Assembly (NCBI GenBank): GCA_030540195.1
Contig: JAUNWT010000015.1
Coordinates: 1 to 35,003 of the forward strand
Origin: Bacillota bacterium
Lineage (GTDB): Bacteria; Bacillota_I; Bacilli_A; Erysipelotrichales; Coprobacillaceae
Reading direction: 5' to 3'
Length of the DNA stretch: 35,003 nucleotides
Each line of letters begins with the position of its first letter. Position 1 is the first letter of the stretch. The translations under genes were made by a program, and so were the position numbers. The notes under the pieces were generated by a model. That model had not been told where the DNA came from, did no database searches, and saw only the letters and a program-made list of their open reading frames with translations. Of the stretch, positions 9,894 to 19,755 are shown piece by piece.

Positions 9894-9921
9894 AAAAGCA
9901 TTAAAATTAATTAATGCTTTT
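9894..9921 (-). terminator. Terminator of the V/A-type ATPase operon
   Basis: AAAAGCATTAA (9894-9904) pairs with TTAATGCTTTT (9911-9921) around a 6-nt loop, with a run of eight T on the minus strand exit side. It overlaps the stop codon of subunit D. Confidence 0.88.
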
Positions 9922-10519
9922 GATTTTTTATAACTTTTTGTCTTGAAAATTCTTCACGTTCTTTTTCTTCAAGTGATTCACTAATAAATTTAATTGTTTC
10001 TTCAAAACGTGGAATTGAAATATTTTTTAACGCATTGGCACGTTTTTGAGTTTTTCTAATTGTATTAGCCAAACGATAAACTGAGTTTTCTACTTCCGCT
10101 AAAACAACAGTTAACTCTTTAACACGATAGAAACATTCATAAGCATAATCCACTTTTGAATTAGAACGGTCCATGTTATAACTACATACCATTGGTTGTT
10201 TATGATAAGTAATCTTAGGAATTTCCACACCCATAACACTTCGATAAGCAATACTAATTCCATAATCAATAGGTGTTGCTGTAACGAGGTCACTAATCAA
10301 CCCTAAAGAGATATTAGCTTCTTGTAAAGCATCATAAGCATTTTGATAAGCTTCCGTAATTTCATCTCTGACCATTTTAACGTCATCTAATAAAGACATC
10401 ATTTCTTTAATAAGAACGTTTCTTTTCTTATCTAATAGATCATATCCAAGAACAGCTAATTGTAATTGTTTCTTTGTAGAAATTAAATTTCCTTTTGTTG
10501 GAACAACTTTTAAAGCCAT
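9911..10519 (-). CDS. ntpD: V/A-type ATPase subunit D (central rotor shaft)
   Basis: 202 aa, the long antiparallel coiled-coil shaft turning inside the A3B3 head. The N-terminal VVPTKGNLISTKKQLQLAVLGYDLLDKKRNVLI and the C-terminal RTQKRANALKN-like segment (here KTQKRANALKNISIPRFEETI) are hallmark subunit D sequences. It is last in the operon and starts two bases after the end of subunit B, with AGGTGA in the end of that gene as ribosome binding site. The stop codon lies in the operon terminator. Confidence 0.95.
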   Translation of the reverse strand: MALKVVPTKGNLISTKKQLQLAVLGYDLLDKKRNVLIKEMMSLLDDVKMVRDEITEAYQNAYDALQEANISLGLISDLVTATPIDYGISIAYRSVMGVEIPKITYHKQPMVCSYNMDRSNSKVDYAYECFYRVKELTVVLAEVENSVYRLANTIRKTQKRANALKNISIPRFEETIKFISESLEEKEREEFSRQKVIKNQKH

Positions 10520-10521
10520 AA

Positions 10522-11964
10522 TTAATCACCTGCTTCTTGTAATTCTTTGATGATTGATTTTTCTTTAATATGGAAACGTTTTACAGCACGATCATGATCA
10601 TAATGTTCATCTAATAATTTGTTATCTAGACGATCAAGTGCTTCTCTTGGTAAAACAGAAACTAAATCCCATCCTAAATCTAATGTTTCTTCAATTGATC
10701 TATTAACATCGAAACCTTGATTTAAGAAATGTTGTTCAAATAATTTACCAAATGATAAATATTGTTTATCTAATGGAGATAATTCATCTTCACCGATAAC
10801 GGATGTTAATGATTTAACATCTTGTACGTGAGCGTAACATGCAAATAATTGGTTGGCAATGTCTTGGTGATCGCCACGTGTATAACCTTCACCGATACCA
10901 TCTTTCATTAAACGTGAAAGTGATGGTAAAACATCAACTGGTGGATAAATACCTGCTGAGTTTAATTCAGGTGATAAAGTAATTTGTCCTTCTGTGATAT
11001 ATCCAGTTAAGTCAGGAACTGGGTGAGTAATATCATTGTTAGGCATTGTTAGAATAGGGATTTGTGTTACAGAACCTTCTGCCCCTTTAATAATACCCGC
11101 TCTTTCATATAAAGAAGCTAAATCAGAATATAAGTAACCTGGATAACCTTTACGTCCAGGAATTTCTCCTTTACTTGAAGAGAATTCACGTAACGCTTCA
11201 CAATATGAAGTGATATCTGTATAGATAACTAATACGTGCATATTTTGTTTATAAGCTAAATATTCAGCAGCCGTTAAAGCACAACGTGGTGTTAATGTAC
11301 GTTCGATGATTGGATCGTTTGATAAGTTTAAGAACATAACAACTCTTTCCATAACACCGGCTTCTTTAAAGCTACGTGTAAAGTAGTTTGCAACGTCATT
11401 TGTAACACCCATTGCCGCAAAGACGATTGCGAAACCTTTTCCTGATTCATCAGCAACTTTGGCTTGTTTAACGATTTGTACAGCTAAACGGTCATGTGGT
11501 AAACCTGAACCAGAGAAGATTGGTAATTTTTGTCCACGAATTAATGTAGCAAGACAGTCAATTGATGAAATACCTGTATTGATGTAGTTACGTGGATAAA
11601 CACGGCTTACTGGATTTAATGGTAAACCATTGATATCCATCATTTCTTCAGCATAGATTTCACCTAAACCATCAATTGGTCGACCAGCACCATTGAAAAC
11701 ACGTCCTAAAATTTCTTTAGAAACAGGTAATTCCATTGGTCTACCTAATAATTTAGTCTTTGTATTTTCTAGTGATAAATCATTTGTTCCTTCAAATACT
11801 TGGACAACGATTTTTTCACCTTCAATTTGGACAACACGTCCAGAACGTGTTGTACCATTTTTTAATTGAATTTCAACCATTTCGTCGTAAGAGGCACCTT
11901 TTACGTGATCTAAAACGACTAATGATCCATTGATTTCATTTAATCCTACATATTGTAGTGCCAT
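10522..11964 (-). CDS. ntpB: V/A-type ATPase subunit B
   Basis: The non-catalytic nucleotide-site subunit of the A3B3 head, with a three-domain layout (beta barrel, nucleotide-binding domain, helical C-terminus). Typical motifs are [22 protein letters not shown] in the degenerate P-loop position, and the long [18 protein letters not shown]. The ATG at 11964 (480 aa) is preferred because it stands eight bases after GGAGG. Another in-frame ATG at 11970 is only two bases from it. It lies between subunits A and D with gaps of 12 and 2 bases, consistent with tight stoichiometric expression. Confidence 0.95.
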
Positions 11965-11976
11965 TTTCATTTCCTC

Positions 11977-13728
11977 CTACGCAACAGATTTTAATGCATT
12001 ATCAATATCTTGATAATAAGTATCTAATTTTTCAATATGATCATTTGGAATATCATATTTCATTTTAATTAATTGTTCAAAAATACCAGTTTCACTAATT
12101 GCACGAACAACTTTACCTTGAGCAACAGCTTCTTGACATTTTTTATTTAAATATAAGATAACATCCATCATCTTTAATTGTTTAGCAAGTGGTACGTATG
12201 TATCATCCTTATGGAAGGCATTTTGTTGTAAATAACCAACACGAACCACTTTCGCAATTTCCATAACTAATTTTTGATCTTCTGGTAACACATCAGGTCC
12301 CATTAAGTTAACAATTTCATTTAATCTTGATTCTTCAGCAAGAATGAATGAAAGTTGTTGACGATCACTAACGAAATCAGAACCAACATTTTGGTCATAC
12401 CATTTTTCAAGATCATAAACATAATCACTATAAGATTGAGTCCAGTTAATTGCGAAATAGTGACGAGCGTAAGCTAAGGCTTTATCTAAGGCCCAGAAAC
12501 ATCTTACGAAACGTTTTGTATTTTGTGTAACTGGTTCTGAGAAGTCTGCCCCTTGTGGTGATACGGCACCGATGATTGAAACAGAACCTTCTTGTCCATT
12601 TAAAGTTTTCATATATCCAGCACGTTCATAGAATTGTGATAAACGTGATGGTAAGTAAGCTGGGAATCCTTCTTCAGCTGGCATTTCTTCTAGACGACCA
12701 GAGATTTCACGTAACGCTTCAGCCCAACGTGAAGTTGAATCGGCCATGATTGCACAGTGATATCCCATATCACGATAATATTCAGCTAAAGTAATTCCTG
12801 TATAAATACTTGCTTCACGTGCCGCAACTGGCATGTTTGAAGTATTCGCAATTAAGACAGTTCTATCAGTTAATGGTTTACCACTCTTAGGGTCAATTAA
12901 CTCACTAAATTCTTCAAGAACTTGAGTCATTTCGTTTCCACGTTCTCCACAACCAACATAAATAATAATGTCAGCATCACACCATTTAGCGATTTGGTGT
13001 TGTGTCATTGTTTTACCAGTACCGAAACCACCAGGAATAGCAGCAGTTCCACCTTTAGCGATTGGGAATAATGTATCGATAACACGTTGTCCTGTTACTA
13101 AAGGAATAGAAATTGGTAAACGTTCTAAAGTTGGACGTGCTTGTTTGATTGGCCATTTTTGACATAATGTACATTCATGAATTTGACCATGTTCATCTTC
13201 AATTTTCATAACGACATCATTGATTTTATATTGACCATTTTCTTTTACTTCTACAACTTTACCGCTTAAAAGTGGTGAAAGCATGCATCTGTGTTCAATT
13301 AAATCTGTTTCAGGACATGTTGCATAGATGTCTCCACCTTTTAAAACATCTCCTACTTTTACTTTCATTGTAACGTCCCATAATTTTTCAACGTCAAGTG
13401 AATCAACATCGCTTCCAGCTTCGATAAAAGCACCAGATTGTTCAGCAATCGCTTGTAATGGACGTTCAATCCCATCAAAGATATTTCTTAAAATACCAGG
13501 ACCTAATGTAACACAAATTGGTGATCCTGTTGAAATAACAGGTTCTCCTGGTTTTAAACCAGTTGTTGTTTCATATACTTGGATAGTTGTTAAATCTTTA
13601 GAAATAGAAATAACTTCACCCATTAATTTAGCATGACCAACATAAACCATTTCTAACATTGAAAAGTCTTTGGCATTTTTTACTTTAACAACGGGACCAT
13701 TAATAGAATAAATTACATTTTCACTCAT
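11977..13728 (-). CDS. ntpA: V/A-type ATPase subunit A (catalytic)
   Basis: 583 aa catalytic subunit. The P-loop is GGFGTGKT (233-240). The catalytic glutamate is in GERGNEM, with MADSTSRWAEALREISGRLEEMP downstream. The roughly 90-residue non-homologous insert that distinguishes A subunits from F-type beta is present before the P-loop. It hydrolyses or makes ATP coupled to ion flow. GGGGGA lies upstream of the ATG and the gene follows subunit E after 11 bases. Nothing is missing relative to the family. Confidence 0.97.
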   Translation of the reverse strand: MSENVIYSINGPVVKVKNAKDFSMLEMVYVGHAKLMGEVISISKDLTTIQVYETTTGLKPGEPVISTGSPICVTLGPGILRNIFDGIERPLQAIAEQSGAFIEAGSDVDSLDVEKLWDVTMKVKVGDVLKGGDIYATCPETDLIEHRCMLSPLLSGKVVEVKENGQYKINDVVMKIEDEHGQIHECTLCQKWPIKQARPTLERLPISIPLVTGQRVIDTLFPIAKGGTAAIPGGFGTGKTMTQHQIAKWCDADIIIYVGCGERGNEMTQVLEEFSELIDPKSGKPLTDRTVLIANTSNMPVAAREASIYTGITLAEYYRDMGYHCAIMADSTSRWAEALREISGRLEEMPAEEGFPAYLPSRLSQFYERAGYMKTLNGQEGSVSIIGAVSPQGADFSEPVTQNTKRFVRCFWALDKALAYARHYFAINWTQSYSDYVYDLEKWYDQNVGSDFVSDRQQLSFILAEESRLNEIVNLMGPDVLPEDQKLVMEIAKVVRVGYLQQNAFHKDDTYVPLAKQLKMMDVILYLNKKCQEAVAQGKVVRAISETGIFEQLIKMKYDIPNDHIEKLDTYYQDIDNALKSVA

Positions 13729-13739
13729 CTTTAATCCCC

Positions 13740-14336
13740 CTATTTAATCATCAATCCAGAAGTTTTATAGAACCAATCTTTTTGAGCTTCTAAATTTGAG
13801 TCTAATGATTCATCTACGACAACATTTGTTGTTTTATTTTCAATAATGAATCCACCTAATTGAATTTGTTGACCTTCTTCAACTTCAATTGGTAAAGCAT
13901 ATGCTTTCTTTAAATCATCTGCATATTTTAAATCATCTTTTCTTACATATAAAACACAATCTGTCATTTGATATTCATCACTAACTGCTTTTACATGTGT
14001 TAATAAATAATCTTTGTAATCTTTACCGTTAACAAATTCAACAAGTTTATTTTTTACTTCTGTAAAAATTGTACTAACGTATTCTTCTCTTTTTTCAACT
14101 AATTTTTTTAATCTTTCTTCGAGTTGAGCTGAAGCTTCAATACTTGCTTTAGAAGAAATTTCTGCTAATTCTTTATCTAATTGATGTTTAGCATCAATTT
14201 CGGCTTCACCTCTTAATTGGTTATAAGCTTCTTGTTCAATTGATTTGGCTTCATCTAAAATTTCTTTTTCTTCAGCTGATGAAATTTTTTCAATTTCATC
14301 TTTGATATAAAGAAAGACTTGATCTTTTTTTTGCAT
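13740..14336 (-). CDS. ntpE: V/A-type ATPase subunit E (peripheral stalk)
   Basis: 198 aa. The N-terminal two thirds is a charged helix with Lys/Glu/Ala repeats that pairs with the H/G subunit to form the peripheral stalk. The C-terminal third is a globular domain (KAVSDEYQMTDCVLYVRKDD, QQIQLGGFIIENKTTNVVVDESLDSNLE) typical of subunit E, which caps the A3B3 head. It lies between F and A as part of the operon, which is strong supporting context because E subunits diverge quickly. Confidence 0.93.
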   Translation of the reverse strand: MQKKDQVFLYIKDEIEKISSAEEKEILDEAKSIEQEAYNQLRGEAEIDAKHQLDKELAEISSKASIEASAQLEERLKKLVEKREEYVSTIFTEVKNKLVEFVNGKDYKDYLLTHVKAVSDEYQMTDCVLYVRKDDLKYADDLKKAYALPIEVEEGQQIQLGGFIIENKTTNVVVDESLDSNLEAQKDWFYKTSGLMIK

Positions 14337-14347
14337 AGCACTTTCTC

Positions 14348-14656
14348 CTATAACTTAACTCCAATTGCTTCTGAAACATATCTATCAATCGTTTCACCAA
14401 TTTTAGAATTTCCATGTCTATCAGGAATTTCTACAAGCAATGGTTTTTGTTGTTTTAATTTTATTTCAGAAATAACATCAGGAGCTAATTCAATTAATTT
14501 CGTTGTAATTAAAATCACACCTATGGATCTATCTTTCATTTTTGTTTCCAAAACTTCAAGAAAATCACGTCTTTTATGAACAACTTCTCCTTCAATACCA
14601 ACAAGTCTTAAACCCATTTCAGTATCGACATTGTCACTTATTAAATAAAATTTCAT
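14348..14656 (-). CDS. ntpG: V/A-type ATPase subunit F (NtpG)
   Basis: 102 aa alpha/beta (CheY-like) central-stalk subunit that binds subunit D. It opens KFYLISDNVDTEMGLRLVGIEG, the family signature, then GVILITTKLIEL and PLLVEIPDRHG. It sits between K and E. In Enterococcus hirae nomenclature this is NtpG; in the archaeal/Thermus scheme it is subunit F. Confidence 0.92.
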   Translation of the reverse strand: MKFYLISDNVDTEMGLRLVGIEGEVVHKRRDFLEVLETKMKDRSIGVILITTKLIELAPDVISEIKLKQQKPLLVEIPDRHGNSKIGETIDRYVSEAIGVKL

Positions 14657-14674: not shown

Positions 14675-15109
14675 TTAGATTTTGTTGATGATTAAGATAG
14701 AGATTAATAAACCATAGATAGCTACCCCTTCACCTAAGGCAACGAAGATTAATGATTTACCAAAGTTCTTTTCATTTTCAGAGAAAGCTCCGATAGCTGC
14801 TGGAGCTGCTGCAGCAACGGCAATACCTGCACCTAAAGCAGAGAATCCAGTTGATAAAGATGCTGCTAAGAATCCTAAACCTTGAGCAATTGTTCCAGTG
14901 ATTGTAGCAACTTCACCTGCTGCAAATACACTTGAATTTGACATAGCAACTAATAAACATAAAACAACGGCACCAGCGAAACCACTGATATGAACACCTA
15001 ATCTTCTTTTAGCGCTTTGAGCTGATACTTTTCCTGTAAATACTTTAATTAATGGTAATGTTAATAAAACTACTGCAACTAATGGTAATAAAATTTCTAA
15101 TACTGTCAT
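14675..15109 (-). CDS. ntpK: V/A-type ATPase subunit K (membrane rotor ring)
   Basis: 144 aa, four hydrophobic segments (about 4-24, 41-63, 75-106 and 117-142). The second pair is a normal proteolipid hairpin (LGAGIAVAAAAPAAIGA, then ALGEGVAIYGLL) with ion-binding Glu127. The first pair has no intramembrane carboxylate and a basic loop (GKVSAQSAKRRLG), so each subunit offers one ion site. It is shorter than the 156-aa E. hirae NtpK. Residues next to the site (Gly after Glu127, no Gln four residues after Pro103) do not reproduce the usual Na-binding set. Ion choice is therefore unresolved. Confidence 0.94.
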   Translation of the reverse strand: MTVLEILLPLVAVVLLTLPLIKVFTGKVSAQSAKRRLGVHISGFAGAVVLCLLVAMSNSSVFAAGEVATITGTIAQGLGFLAASLSTGFSALGAGIAVAAAAPAAIGAFSENEKNFGKSLIFVALGEGVAIYGLLISILIINKI

Positions 15110-15129: not shown

Positions 15130-17037
15130 TTAATCTTCCTTAATAGTTTTAAATGGAATTCCATTTCCTTCATAATAACGTGAAAACATTTCATAGAATT
15201 CAAGACGTAATACTTGAATACCAACAATCAATCCTTCAAGACACATTACGAAAACGTTTCCTAAAATCAAGACGATGATTTCACCAAATCCTCCAACCAT
15301 TTCGGCAAGAGTATAAACAACAAGCATCATACCAGCATGTGATAAAACGAATCCCCCGACACGCAAGAATGACATTGTGTTTGTAATAAATGATAAGACT
15401 ACTTCAAATAATTCGAAGAATCCTTCAACAAAGAATGCTCCAAAACCATTTGGGAACATTTCACCATGTTCTTCTAATTTTCTAATTAATGGTTCTTTTA
15501 AGAACATTAAGATCAGTGGTAACACAATTAAAATTAAAATATAGAAAATATTTACAAAATGCATACCTGTAAGCATTCCAAGAGCTGCACCAATAACAGC
15601 TACGTAGAATGTAACCCCACATAAACCATTTTGACTTAAAATTGCTTCACCCATATTTTTCTTTTTAAAGTTCAAAATAATATTGAATGTCATTGAAACA
15701 AGAATTAAAACAATACCTAATCCAATGGCAGCCATTAATAATGTCATTGTATTTTCTGGTGACATTGCATTAAAGAATGAGAAACCTTTAAAATATTCAG
15801 ATAAGATTTCTTCATTTCCAAAGAATGAACCAAAGAATACACCGAAGATTGCACTGGAAATACCTAAACGAACTCCCACGCCACCTAATTTTAAATTAAA
15901 TTTCTTTTCAGCAACGAGGCCTACTAAAGAAAGAATAATACCTTGTCCTAAGTCACCGAACATAATACCAAACAATAAAGTATATGAAATAGCAACTAAT
16001 AAAGTTGGATCTACATCATTGTAACGAGGTACACCATACATTTCGACAAACATTCTAAACGGTCTTGCAAACCATGAGTTTTTAAGTCTTGTTGGTGGTT
16101 CTAGACGTACATCTGATGTAGCAGGTAATACTTCAAGTTTAACACCATCGATACTTTCAAAAGTGTTTTTGAAGTTATCTAAATCACTCTTAGGGACAAA
16201 TCCATGAACATTTAATTTATCACCTAATTTAACAATGTATTTTTGCATTGCATAAACTGAATTTAGTTTTTTCGCAATACTATAAATACGTGTTAATTCT
16301 TCCATATTTTCTGAAATTGTTTTATCAATTCTATTTTGTAAATCTTGGCTATATTGTTTAGCTGAATCTGATTCATTTTGAATTTCTTGTTCAGCTAATT
16401 CACATGAACCATGAACGAATTCAGGAATATGAATTTTTTCAAAATAAAGCGATGTGAACACATTATCCACTTCAGGAGCATCTGTAGGTGTTGTCATATA
16501 CATACACCATACATATTTATCATCTCTTTGGAATGCTTTATAAACAAATGGTAATGTTTCATAATACTCTAACTTTCCTTCATTATTGAGAGGAAGTTTA
16601 CCGAATCTTATTTTTAAATATTGTGTTCCAAATAATTGATCAAAGTCAATATTAGAACCTTCAACGTGATTTAAAGTAATGATAGCTTCATCATTTTCAT
16701 TAATCATCTTTGTCAATTCTTTTTTAACAGCATCAATACGGTCAATATCTAAAAATAAATCATCTAAAAATTCTTTAGCTCTAAATACATTAAGTTGCGT
16801 ATCTGTTTCAACTTCAGGAACTTCAAAATGATATTTTGTTTTCATTTCTTCAATTCTTGATAACAATTCTTCATAAAGATTGTCATTGTTGTAAGCTGAA
16901 AGACCAGCAACACTATCCGTAAACTTGCTTGCTAGCTCGGGATGAAAATCATCTCTTTGATAAAGCTCAAGTAACACATCATTACAATTTTCTTTATCAA
17001 AATCAAGGCTAACCAAGTTTAATTTTGCTATTGCCAT
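15130..17037 (-). CDS. ntpI: V/A-type ATPase subunit I (a-subunit, stator)
   Basis: 635 aa. A cytosolic N-terminal half with coiled coil (about 1-340) connects to the peripheral stalks. The C-terminal half, about eight membrane segments, forms the ion half-channels. The essential stator arginine is Arg559 in SFLRVGGFVLSHAG. The conserved VGIQVLRLEFYEMFSRYYEG near the C-terminus is intact. The start ATG lies inside the end of the short I-like gene (10-base overlap) with GGGGG six bases upstream, so the two are translationally coupled. This is the complete, presumably functional I subunit. Confidence 0.95.
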   Translation of the reverse strand: MAIAKLNLVSLDFDKENCNDVLLELYQRDDFHPELASKFTDSVAGLSAYNNDNLYEELLSRIEEMKTKYHFEVPEVETDTQLNVFRAKEFLDDLFLDIDRIDAVKKELTKMINENDEAIITLNHVEGSNIDFDQLFGTQYLKIRFGKLPLNNEGKLEYYETLPFVYKAFQRDDKYVWCMYMTTPTDAPEVDNVFTSLYFEKIHIPEFVHGSCELAEQEIQNESDSAKQYSQDLQNRIDKTISENMEELTRIYSIAKKLNSVYAMQKYIVKLGDKLNVHGFVPKSDLDNFKNTFESIDGVKLEVLPATSDVRLEPPTRLKNSWFARPFRMFVEMYGVPRYNDVDPTLLVAISYTLLFGIMFGDLGQGIILSLVGLVAEKKFNLKLGGVGVRLGISSAIFGVFFGSFFGNEEILSEYFKGFSFFNAMSPENTMTLLMAAIGLGIVLILVSMTFNIILNFKKKNMGEAILSQNGLCGVTFYVAVIGAALGMLTGMHFVNIFYILILIVLPLILMFLKEPLIRKLEEHGEMFPNGFGAFFVEGFFELFEVVLSFITNTMSFLRVGGFVLSHAGMMLVVYTLAEMVGGFGEIIVLILGNVFVMCLEGLIVGIQVLRLEFYEMFSRYYEGNGIPFKTIKED

Positions 17038-18392
17038 GACAGTCCCCCTTTACTCTTTATTGATCTTTTTGTCACTTTTTTTACTAAGCTACAAACTAAT
17101 AATACCACAATGTTTATAACAAAGAATAATCCAATTTGCATTGCATAGTTAGTTCCTACAACAAAGATTGAATTATAAAGTGACATACTATAGAAGACTG
17201 TTCCACTTAATAGTCCTCCTATTGTAACAGCAGCTCCTACACGTTGTAGTAACTTACCGATGTTACCTTTAATAATAAATGATAACAGAATAGCTAAAAC
17301 ACCTACTCCTAAATCACCAAGTAAAACAAGTGCTGAAAGCATCATGACCACACCAGCAATTACTGTTGGATCAAATTTTTCACCAGGTTTAAATGTGAAT
17401 AAACATTCAAATGGTTGGAAAAAAGCATTGTTTTCAACATAGACAGGACCTTCAATTCCTTGATCTTGATACGTATCAATAGGAAGTTCATGAATTGTAA
17501 TTCCTGGAACACTGACGATTGCTTCTAATTCATCTTTATTAAATGAACTAAAGGCATAAACTGCAGCTTTTGTTTTTAAATCAACAACATATTTACCTTT
17601 CTTGTATAACTCTTTCAAACGATAGGTTTTCCAGAAGTCACCAAGTAGTTGTTCTTCATTTTCTTCTTTGACTTTTTCAATACGTTGATCAAGTTCTTGA
17701 AGATAAGCTTCCATTGTTTTATTTTCTGCTTTTAATTCAGCAACTGCTTCTTCCATTTTACCATGGGCAAATTTTGGAAGTTTTACTTCTTCAAAGTTCA
17801 TTGAAGAGAAAATGTTATCAATTTCACCAATACTATTTTCAACCCCACCATAAACAATCCAAGCGAATTGATCAGTATGTGATAATTCTTGATAAACAAA
17901 TGGATAACTATCAAAATATTTGATTTTTTCAATTTGTGATAATGGTAATTTACCAAATCTTAAAGCAACATATTTTAATTCATGAATATCATCGATAGAA
18001 ATACGATCACGATTTAAACATGTGATTAATTCAATTGCTTCTTCATTTTCATAATAATCTTTTTTAATTCCTCTTTTAATTTCATTAATATCATCTAATT
18101 TTTGATGAATTTCTGAAATATAATCTAAAATTTCACGAACATTTAAAAATGCACTTTGAACAGGTCTATCTACTCTTTCAATATGTAAGATATCCATCAC
18201 ATTATAAAGTTCGTCTAATACTTCGTTATATGGATTTCTATCTTCCATAGAAGTTGCATGATCTAAGTTAGAAATCACTTTCTTCGCTTTAACTGGATAA
18301 ATAGAATCTTGATGATTTTCAAGTTTCATCAAAACTTCCATATAATCATCTCTAGAGAAAACAATGTTATATAAATGTGTATTCTTAATCAT
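17028..18392 (-). CDS. Short second I-like ATPase subunit lacking the arginine helices
   Basis: 454 aa, paralogous to subunit I along its whole length. Both share KYVALRFGKLPL / YLKIRFGKLPL, the PFVY segment, the helical arm and the junction FFQPFECLF / WFARPFRMF, followed by DPT and LGDLGVG / FGDLGQG. Only four membrane segments follow (about 342-358, 361-375, 384-402 and 419-437). The protein ends with a basic tail, without the SFLRVGGF and VLRLEFYE helices that carry the channel residues. It therefore cannot make a half-channel alone. It is well kept and lies between C and the full I gene, which it overlaps by 10 bases. It may be an extra stator arm or assembly factor. This is inference. 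Confidence 0.85.
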   Translation of the reverse strand: MIKNTHLYNIVFSRDDYMEVLMKLENHQDSIYPVKAKKVISNLDHATSMEDRNPYNEVLDELYNVMDILHIERVDRPVQSAFLNVREILDYISEIHQKLDDINEIKRGIKKDYYENEEAIELITCLNRDRISIDDIHELKYVALRFGKLPLSQIEKIKYFDSYPFVYQELSHTDQFAWIVYGGVENSIGEIDNIFSSMNFEEVKLPKFAHGKMEEAVAELKAENKTMEAYLQELDQRIEKVKEENEEQLLGDFWKTYRLKELYKKGKYVVDLKTKAAVYAFSSFNKDELEAIVSVPGITIHELPIDTYQDQGIEGPVYVENNAFFQPFECLFTFKPGEKFDPTVIAGVVMMLSALVLLGDLGVGVLAILLSFIIKGNIGKLLQRVGAAVTIGGLLSGTVFYSMSLYNSIFVVGTNYAMQIGLFFVINIVVLLVCSLVKKVTKRSIKSKGGLSWQ

Positions 18393-18403
18393 TTTTTCCC
18401 CTC

Positions 18404-19435
18404 CTATGCATAGATCAATGTATTTTCAATTTTTGAAACAGGTTGGTTGTAACGAATACCTTCAACGATATGCTTCAAGTTATCTATTTCAATTCTTTGT
18501 AAAATACTATAAGTCATATAAACAAGTGGTGCACTGTTTGAAAAACGCATATATCTTTTTGCGATATTATATTGAATACTATCAGCATAATATTCAATAT
18601 AGGCAAACTCTTTATCATCTATATAGAAGTTATATTTAGAAGTTGATAATAAAGATAATACTTCTTTAGGACCGCTTGCACTAATTAAACGATTCATCAT
18701 ATCTTTTGGCAATCTTGAATATTGTAAAAAGAGTGAACTTCTGATTGAATCTTCTGATTCGTGGAAATATTGTTTATAACGATAGATTTTTGAAATATTC
18801 TTTAATTCAATAGAAGTATAGAGAATATTTAATAAATCTTTTTGAACGCTTCCTTTGAAGTGTTTTTTAATTGTTTCAACAATATTTTCATAATAAAGTG
18901 ATTGTAAGCACATATGAACTTCTTTAACATCAAATGGAACAGAGAAATCAATTTCTTTAAGAACTTTATAATATCTTGTTTTTGAAAGATATTGTAAAAG
19001 ATCTTTAAATGATTCAATGTTGACTAATCCATCAATATTAAAACTTGTTTTCTTCGCTAAATAAGTAGGAATTGATAAATTAAAGCTATATTGTTCCTTT
19101 GCTTGTAAAGAAACAAGTTTATCCATAATTAAATTAATTTCTACTCCAATAATTTCAAATAGATAAAAATCTTCATCAGACTTAGGTGAATATTTCATCA
19201 ACTTAGCACAACGATGATAATATTCTTGATTTAAACAATCTTCTATTTGACCACGATGAACATGTCTAATATTAATATCCTTTAAAGCATCTGCATAACT
19301 TGTTTGAGATTTTAAATAAGAAACAACTTCTCCAATTGTTTGTTTTCTTGTTAAATCAAGATAAACATTCTTATTTAAACGTCCACCATACATTGCTTTA
19401 GCTTTTGCACATAAGGCATTTGAAGATAAAGACAT
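18404..19435 (-). CDS. ntpC: V/A-type ATPase subunit C (rotor socket, d-subunit)
   Basis: 343 aa, all-helical. It begins with SSNALCAKAKAMYGGRL, typical of AC39/subunit C proteins, and keeps the three-fold repeated helical bundle with RYYKVLKEIDFS and YSILQRIEIDNLKHIVEGIRYN near the end. It couples the central stalk (D/F) to the K ring. It is second in the operon, 11 bases after the H/G gene, with AGAAGGTG upstream. Confidence 0.92.
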   Translation of the reverse strand: MSLSSNALCAKAKAMYGGRLNKNVYLDLTRKQTIGEVVSYLKSQTSYADALKDINIRHVHRGQIEDCLNQEYYHRCAKLMKYSPKSDEDFYLFEIIGVEINLIMDKLVSLQAKEQYSFNLSIPTYLAKKTSFNIDGLVNIESFKDLLQYLSKTRYYKVLKEIDFSVPFDVKEVHMCLQSLYYENIVETIKKHFKGSVQKDLLNILYTSIELKNISKIYRYKQYFHESEDSIRSSLFLQYSRLPKDMMNRLISASGPKEVLSLLSTSKYNFYIDDKEFAYIEYYADSIQYNIAKRYMRFSNSAPLVYMTYSILQRIEIDNLKHIVEGIRYNQPVSKIENTLIYA

Positions 19436-19446
19436 CTTTACACCTT

Positions 19447-19755
19447 CTATTTAGTACATCTTGTAAAGATTTCATCTACCCATTTATCTTTATTTTGAGT
19501 AAATAAATCTTCCATATTTTTCATTGATTTATGAAATTCATTTTCTTGTAATTGTGCTTCTTCTTTATTCTTATTCAATAGATCTTGTTTATGCTTTTCA
19601 ACTTGATCTTGTTGACTATCAATATACTCACTATAAATCGTAGACTTTTGCGACATCATACTTGATTGAGCTTCCGCTTTTTTCTTTTTCGCAAGTTCTA
19701 CTTTTTCTACGCATTGGCGATCGAATTCTATTAACTTTTGAATAATATCATCCAT
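19447..19755 (-). CDS. V/A-type ATPase H/G-type peripheral stalk subunit
   Basis: 102 aa, almost entirely one charged helix rich in Lys, Glu, Gln and Ala (VEKVELAKKKKAEAQSSM to the C-terminus). This matches the partner of subunit E in peripheral stalks (NtpF/NtpH, subunit H/G). ATG 19755 is chosen because AAGGGGG lies upstream and family members start near here. An in-frame TTG 41 codons earlier falls in the structured leader. It is the first gene of the operon and its start is about 240 bases after the promoter. Sequence alone is low complexity; the operon position makes the call. Confidence 0.85.
   Translation of the reverse strand: MDDIIQKLIEFDRQCVEKVELAKKKKAEAQSSMMSQKSTIYSEYIDSQQDQVEKHKQDLLNKNKEEAQLQENEFHKSMKNMEDLFTQNKDKWVDEIFTRCTK

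Follow-up and report, generated by a model that had tools for sequence, protein, structure and literature searches.

In the bacterial V/A-ATPases whose structures are known, a single I subunit (also called a) is combined with two peripheral stalks. In the Thermus enzyme, the two lobes of the a-subunit arm bind one E/G stalk apiece (PMC7367684), and the Enterococcus hirae enzyme has two asymmetric stalks, with R573 and R629 as the arginines named for its I subunit (PMC10382590). In eukaryotic V-ATPases, subunit C holds a third stalk (PMC6131620); subunits C and H are stated to lack functional homologues in the bacterial ones (PMC3569449). Our search of the open literature found no account of bacteria with a second subunit I or a truncated one.

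The window, that is, the whole 35,003-nucleotide stretch of DNA analyzed here, comes from a Faecalibacillus genome and carries a V/A-ATPase operon on the minus strand in the order G-C-iS-I-K-F-E-A-B-D, where iS is a short second I subunit. The iS gene (17028–18392) encodes 454 amino acids from an ATG start in a clean frame, and lies between the genes for the rotor cap, subunit C (18404–19435, PF01992; AC39, the d subunit of eukaryotes), and for the full-length, 635-amino acid subunit I (15130–17037). Subunit G/H of the peripheral stalk (19447–19755, 102 amino acids from its ATG) was assigned by position, size, and charged helical sequence; it has no matches in Pfam or NCBIfam, and the gene so assigned occupies the same operon place in relatives. 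The remaining genes encode the c-ring subunit K (14675–15109, 144 amino acids, PF00137), F (14348–14656, PF01990), the peripheral stalk subunit E (13740–14336, PF01991), the catalytic subunit A (11977–13728), B (10522–11970, PF00006), and the rotor shaft D (9911–10519, PF01813). The product of 11977–13728, which we take to belong to the A-subunit family, was assigned by sequence and by its conserved place in relatives. In subunit K, the ATP-synt_C model covers the second hairpin only (residues 81–140), and Pfam gives no match to the first. A search of the genome found one V/A-type I locus, which together with the single copy of each operon gene excludes a second complete motor, in agreement with the sequence-only reading of the window, which had thought a wholly separate one unlikely. 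The genome also encodes the a subunit of an F-type ATPase (G000:C15:8038-8640, L095), and the cell appears to be equipped with both F-type and V/A-type rotary ATPases.

Residues 2–391 of iS align with full I at 27% identity (E 2e-49). In an AlphaFold2 model of iS (mean pLDDT 85), an arm made up of two α/β lobes and a long hairpin of helices extends over residues ~1–316 and is followed by four helices at the C-terminus; the top structural matches of the model are the a subunits of Thermus, yeast, and mammals. With NtpI of E. hirae (8wci) and the a subunit of Thermus thermophilus (6r0z), iS shares the two-lobed arm fold and hairpin, the GDxGxG motif at the membrane entry, and its place in the operon, and the homology is clear. 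It differs from them in being present in addition to a full I and in missing the last membrane helices, which carry both c-ring-facing arginines. These arginines are R559 and R611 in full I, the counterparts by motif of E. hirae R573 and R629, and they are invariant among 52 aligned full I proteins; both motifs were identified in all 80 full I proteins of a larger set and in none of the short or arm-only forms. Thus, by alignment and predicted structure iS has the two-lobed cytosolic arm of the a-subunit fold, and it does not have the tilted helices 7–8 of a subunit I. Because the defining channel arginines are missing, iS is a subunit I descendant that cannot be a working I. The sequence-only reading had described an I-type paralogue composed of the arm and four helices and lacking the region of the essential Arg559; the alignment and model bear this out, and R611 is absent as well. 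Family models recognize iS poorly, with no match to Pfam V_ATPase_I at E 0.001 and at most 34 bits, far below cut-off, with the NCBIfam PRK05771 models, which weighs little as the full I of the window also falls below the NCBIfam cut-offs. Eukaryotic a isoforms (Vph1/Stv1, a1–a4) are likewise paralogous a subunits within one organism, but all of these are complete channels and mutually replaceable, whereas iS is no substitute for full I.

Yeast and mammalian subunit C chains come next after the a subunits in a Foldseek search with the iS model (E 1.7e-7 to 1.4e-4). Like eukaryotic subunit C (Vma5), iS would be an elongated, two-lobed stator protein with an arm-like shape, and the anchoring of a third E/G stalk by subunit C is the role that we propose, by analogy, for iS. 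The two have no detectable sequence kinship, and the iS of the window differs in having membrane helices, of which the arm-only proteins described below have none. For the head-neck-foot fold of subunit C, the Foldseek E of 1.7e-7 (yeast) stands beside a weak superposition (TM 0.20, Z 7.9), and VIA-align places the match at the level of unrelated helical rows. Since full I gives similar matches to subunit C and the superposition is poor, we ascribe the resemblance to general arm architecture and not to demonstrated kinship.

The spread of the short form was surveyed in 41 genomes of the family, each at least 80% complete. A membrane-anchored short I lies directly upstream of full I, in the slot C-iS-I, in 33 of these; three have it as a lone gene outside the operon (G022, G024, and G030), one has an arm-only second I (G014), and four have full I alone (G011, G015, G016, and G018). 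Some second I-type gene is therefore present in 37 of 41 genomes, counting the separate arm-only copy of G014, while operons examined in the sister family have one I each. Mapping the short gene next to ntpI and building a tree of I proteins were among the checks proposed in the sequence-only reading. In the tree, all short forms make up one old clade (support 100/100), which is sister to the full I of the family (93/96; 100/98 for both together in a second tree) and branches in much the same order as full I does. From these sequence relationships it follows that a single duplication preceded the diversification of the family and was succeeded by vertical inheritance with the operon and a few losses. 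A local accident or a frameshifted I gene is ruled out by the age and conservation of the clade. The short form has ~508 amino acids and six helices in many genera, ~453 amino acids and four helices in the branch of the window, and ~435 amino acids in the lone copies. A contig scan that reached two Faecalibacillus loci only showed the iS product to be 97% identical to its counterpart in F. faecis and 92% identical to that in F. intestinalis. In the genus group of the window, short I is ~40% identical between species clusters versus 80% for full I; subunits C, G, and E likewise diverge fast between these clusters.

The short gene is under purifying selection, with omega of 0.08–0.17 in most close pairs, across genera. 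This is about twice the value for full I and similar to that for subunit E. The pace of iS evolution is roughly double that of full I. The lone copies (L025:8239-9549, L027:8004-9311, and L029:9029-10336) belong to one branch of the family and lie, as judged by eye, near genes for an rRNA methyltransferase, a DNA glycosylase, AroB, and a cell-wall hydrolase, a neighborhood partly common to the three loci. These are housekeeping genes and are uninformative on function. Purifying selection has continued after relocation (omega 0.08 in the one pair measured), which indicates that the product does not need to be synthesized from the operon. Two family members depart from the usual arrangement. In G036 (L042:9200-10806), the short I is frameshifted near codon 380, with the rest readable in another frame, which is either real or an assembly error. 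In G009 (L035:7591-10860), short and full I share one frame with nothing but a stop codon and a few further codons in between, and read-through would join them into a protein of almost 1,090 residues.

In the window, the iS stop codon (TAG, 17030–17028) and the start codon of full I (ATG at 17037) lie within a 10-base overlap of the two genes (17028–17037). The sequence-only reading had taken this overlap to force coupled synthesis. The overlap itself is real, and is confined to the window and the two relatives nearest to it; in other carriers the genes usually lie 10–15 bases apart, or else overlap by a single base. Each gene also has its own strong ribosome-binding site, as read from the sequence: AAGGGGG within iS for full I (17044–17050) and AGGAGGGG at the end of gene C for iS (18398–18405). 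With an unconserved overlap, separate ribosome-binding sites, and a short gene at a separate locus in three genomes, forced coupling is not supported.

A search of the class Bacilli uncovered further second I genes within V/A-ATPase operons (L085-L088, L096-L104, and L031). These encode ~320–340 amino acids without a hydrophobic segment and end at the boundary between arm and membrane domain. Two different gene orders are seen: nine f22 family genomes, G388, and G014 carry the arm gene immediately ahead of full I, and three genomes of genus g118 have the order G-arm-C-I. In the tree, the arm-only proteins are nested among full I proteins from related bacteria, except that the G388 arm is too divergent to be placed and the G014 arm is a long branch. 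Approximately unbiased (AU) tests reject holding together all second arms (p-AU 0.0004), the short clade with the g118 arms (p-AU 7e-8), and the g118 with the f22 arms (p-AU 9e-5), as well as a single origin even within f22 (p-AU 1e-4). Because common origin is rejected, at least four separate origins of second arms are likely, a count that gene conversion between tandem copies may inflate. Conversion is unlikely to be the whole story, however, since the gene order in g118 and the end points differ, and arm-to-full I identity is only 42–59% (30% in G388). As these independent second arms have no membrane helices at all, the membrane part of a second I is apparently dispensable, a point that the sequence-only reading had overlooked.

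What all second copies have in common is the arm, the membrane domain being variable or dropped, and the function most likely resides there. Measured against full I, the iS arm has kept more of its conservation than membrane helices 3–4 have, and in the return helix of its hairpin conservation comes close to the full I level (ratio 0.90 vs. 0.48). We propose, with a probability of about 0.5, that iS serves the V/A-ATPase as an additional stator arm that does not pump and that holds E/G, probably as a third E/G stalk, in the manner of eukaryotic subunit C. Its presence in the complex, its binding of E/G, and the third stalk are inferences. The gene arose by tandem duplication of subunit I and the subsequent loss of helices 7–8 with both channel arginines, and in the branch of the window also of helices 5–6. 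As an ion half-channel facing the K ring, iS can no longer act. The arm, however, is kept with its two lobes and hairpin; the lobes would hold E/G to create a further stalk attachment, and the membrane helices would serve as an anchor only, one that other lineages dispense with. The four family genomes without iS count against the proposal, as does the roughly twofold faster evolution of iS relative to full I; given these four genomes, iS is not essential everywhere. Rate covariation with iS was dropped as a means of naming a partner subunit, as the values are weak and inconsistent (partial r of 0.47 with G and 0.15 with E). An extra stator anchor was among the options listed from the window alone, and it now ranks as the most likely of these, with a brake and an assembly scaffold kept as less likely rivals.

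An assembly factor, whether iS or an arm-only protein, would hold E/G or an immature Vo during assembly and be outside the finished enzyme. The existence of soluble arm-only versions, the position of the iS gene just before full I, its faster evolution compared with core subunits, and its tolerated absence from four genomes all accord with such a role. The fixed place among structural subunits and the retention of both lobes, however, fit a permanent subunit equally well, and nothing specific indicates a chaperone; we regard this alternative as rather unlikely. Less probable still is a brake, in which the second arm would bind the rotor cap (subunit C, or d) and lock rotation when V1 is detached or ions are scarce. 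There is precedent in isolated Vo, where the Thermus arm binds d and blocks rotation (PMC7367684), and iS adjoins gene C, while the g118 arm gene lies between G and C. Full I already has such an arm, however, and the rate covariation of iS with C (0.34) does not exceed that with G or I. It is quite improbable that iS is a regulatory isoform, one in competition with full I for E/G and thereby reducing the amount of working enzyme: retention of the arm without the channel suits competition and relocation as a lone gene would permit separate regulation, but sharing an operon with full I in most genomes leaves little room for separate control. A slowly decaying duplicate without function, to which the C-terminal losses, the roughly twofold faster evolution, the absence from four genomes, and the frameshift in G036 might point, is highly improbable given the open frame, the purifying selection across genera, and the recurrence elsewhere with the same end point.

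The sequence-only reading had also held that iS is not an eroding duplicate, and the low omega values and the second I in 37 of 41 genomes agree with this. We conclude that iS is a conserved, channel-less second I that is apparently functional, and that the earlier observation holds, and holds more widely than the sequence of the window alone could show. A conserved and recurrent second I arm brings into question the picture of one I subunit with two stalks and no functional counterpart of subunits C and H. The series of short forms with six helices, four helices, and none constitutes a natural set for asking about the role of the arm apart from that of the channel, and the carriers include cultured gut bacteria (Faecalibacillus strains). 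It is possible, though doubtful, that several bacterial lineages independently made a duplicated I into a dedicated stator arm, giving V/A-ATPases with a third stalk and a convergent counterpart of subunit C. A second I arm offers a model for a possible beginning of the three-stalk stator of eukaryotes, and the recurrence of the extra arm suggests a bacterial way of bracing the motor that resembles the use of subunit C in animal and plant cells.
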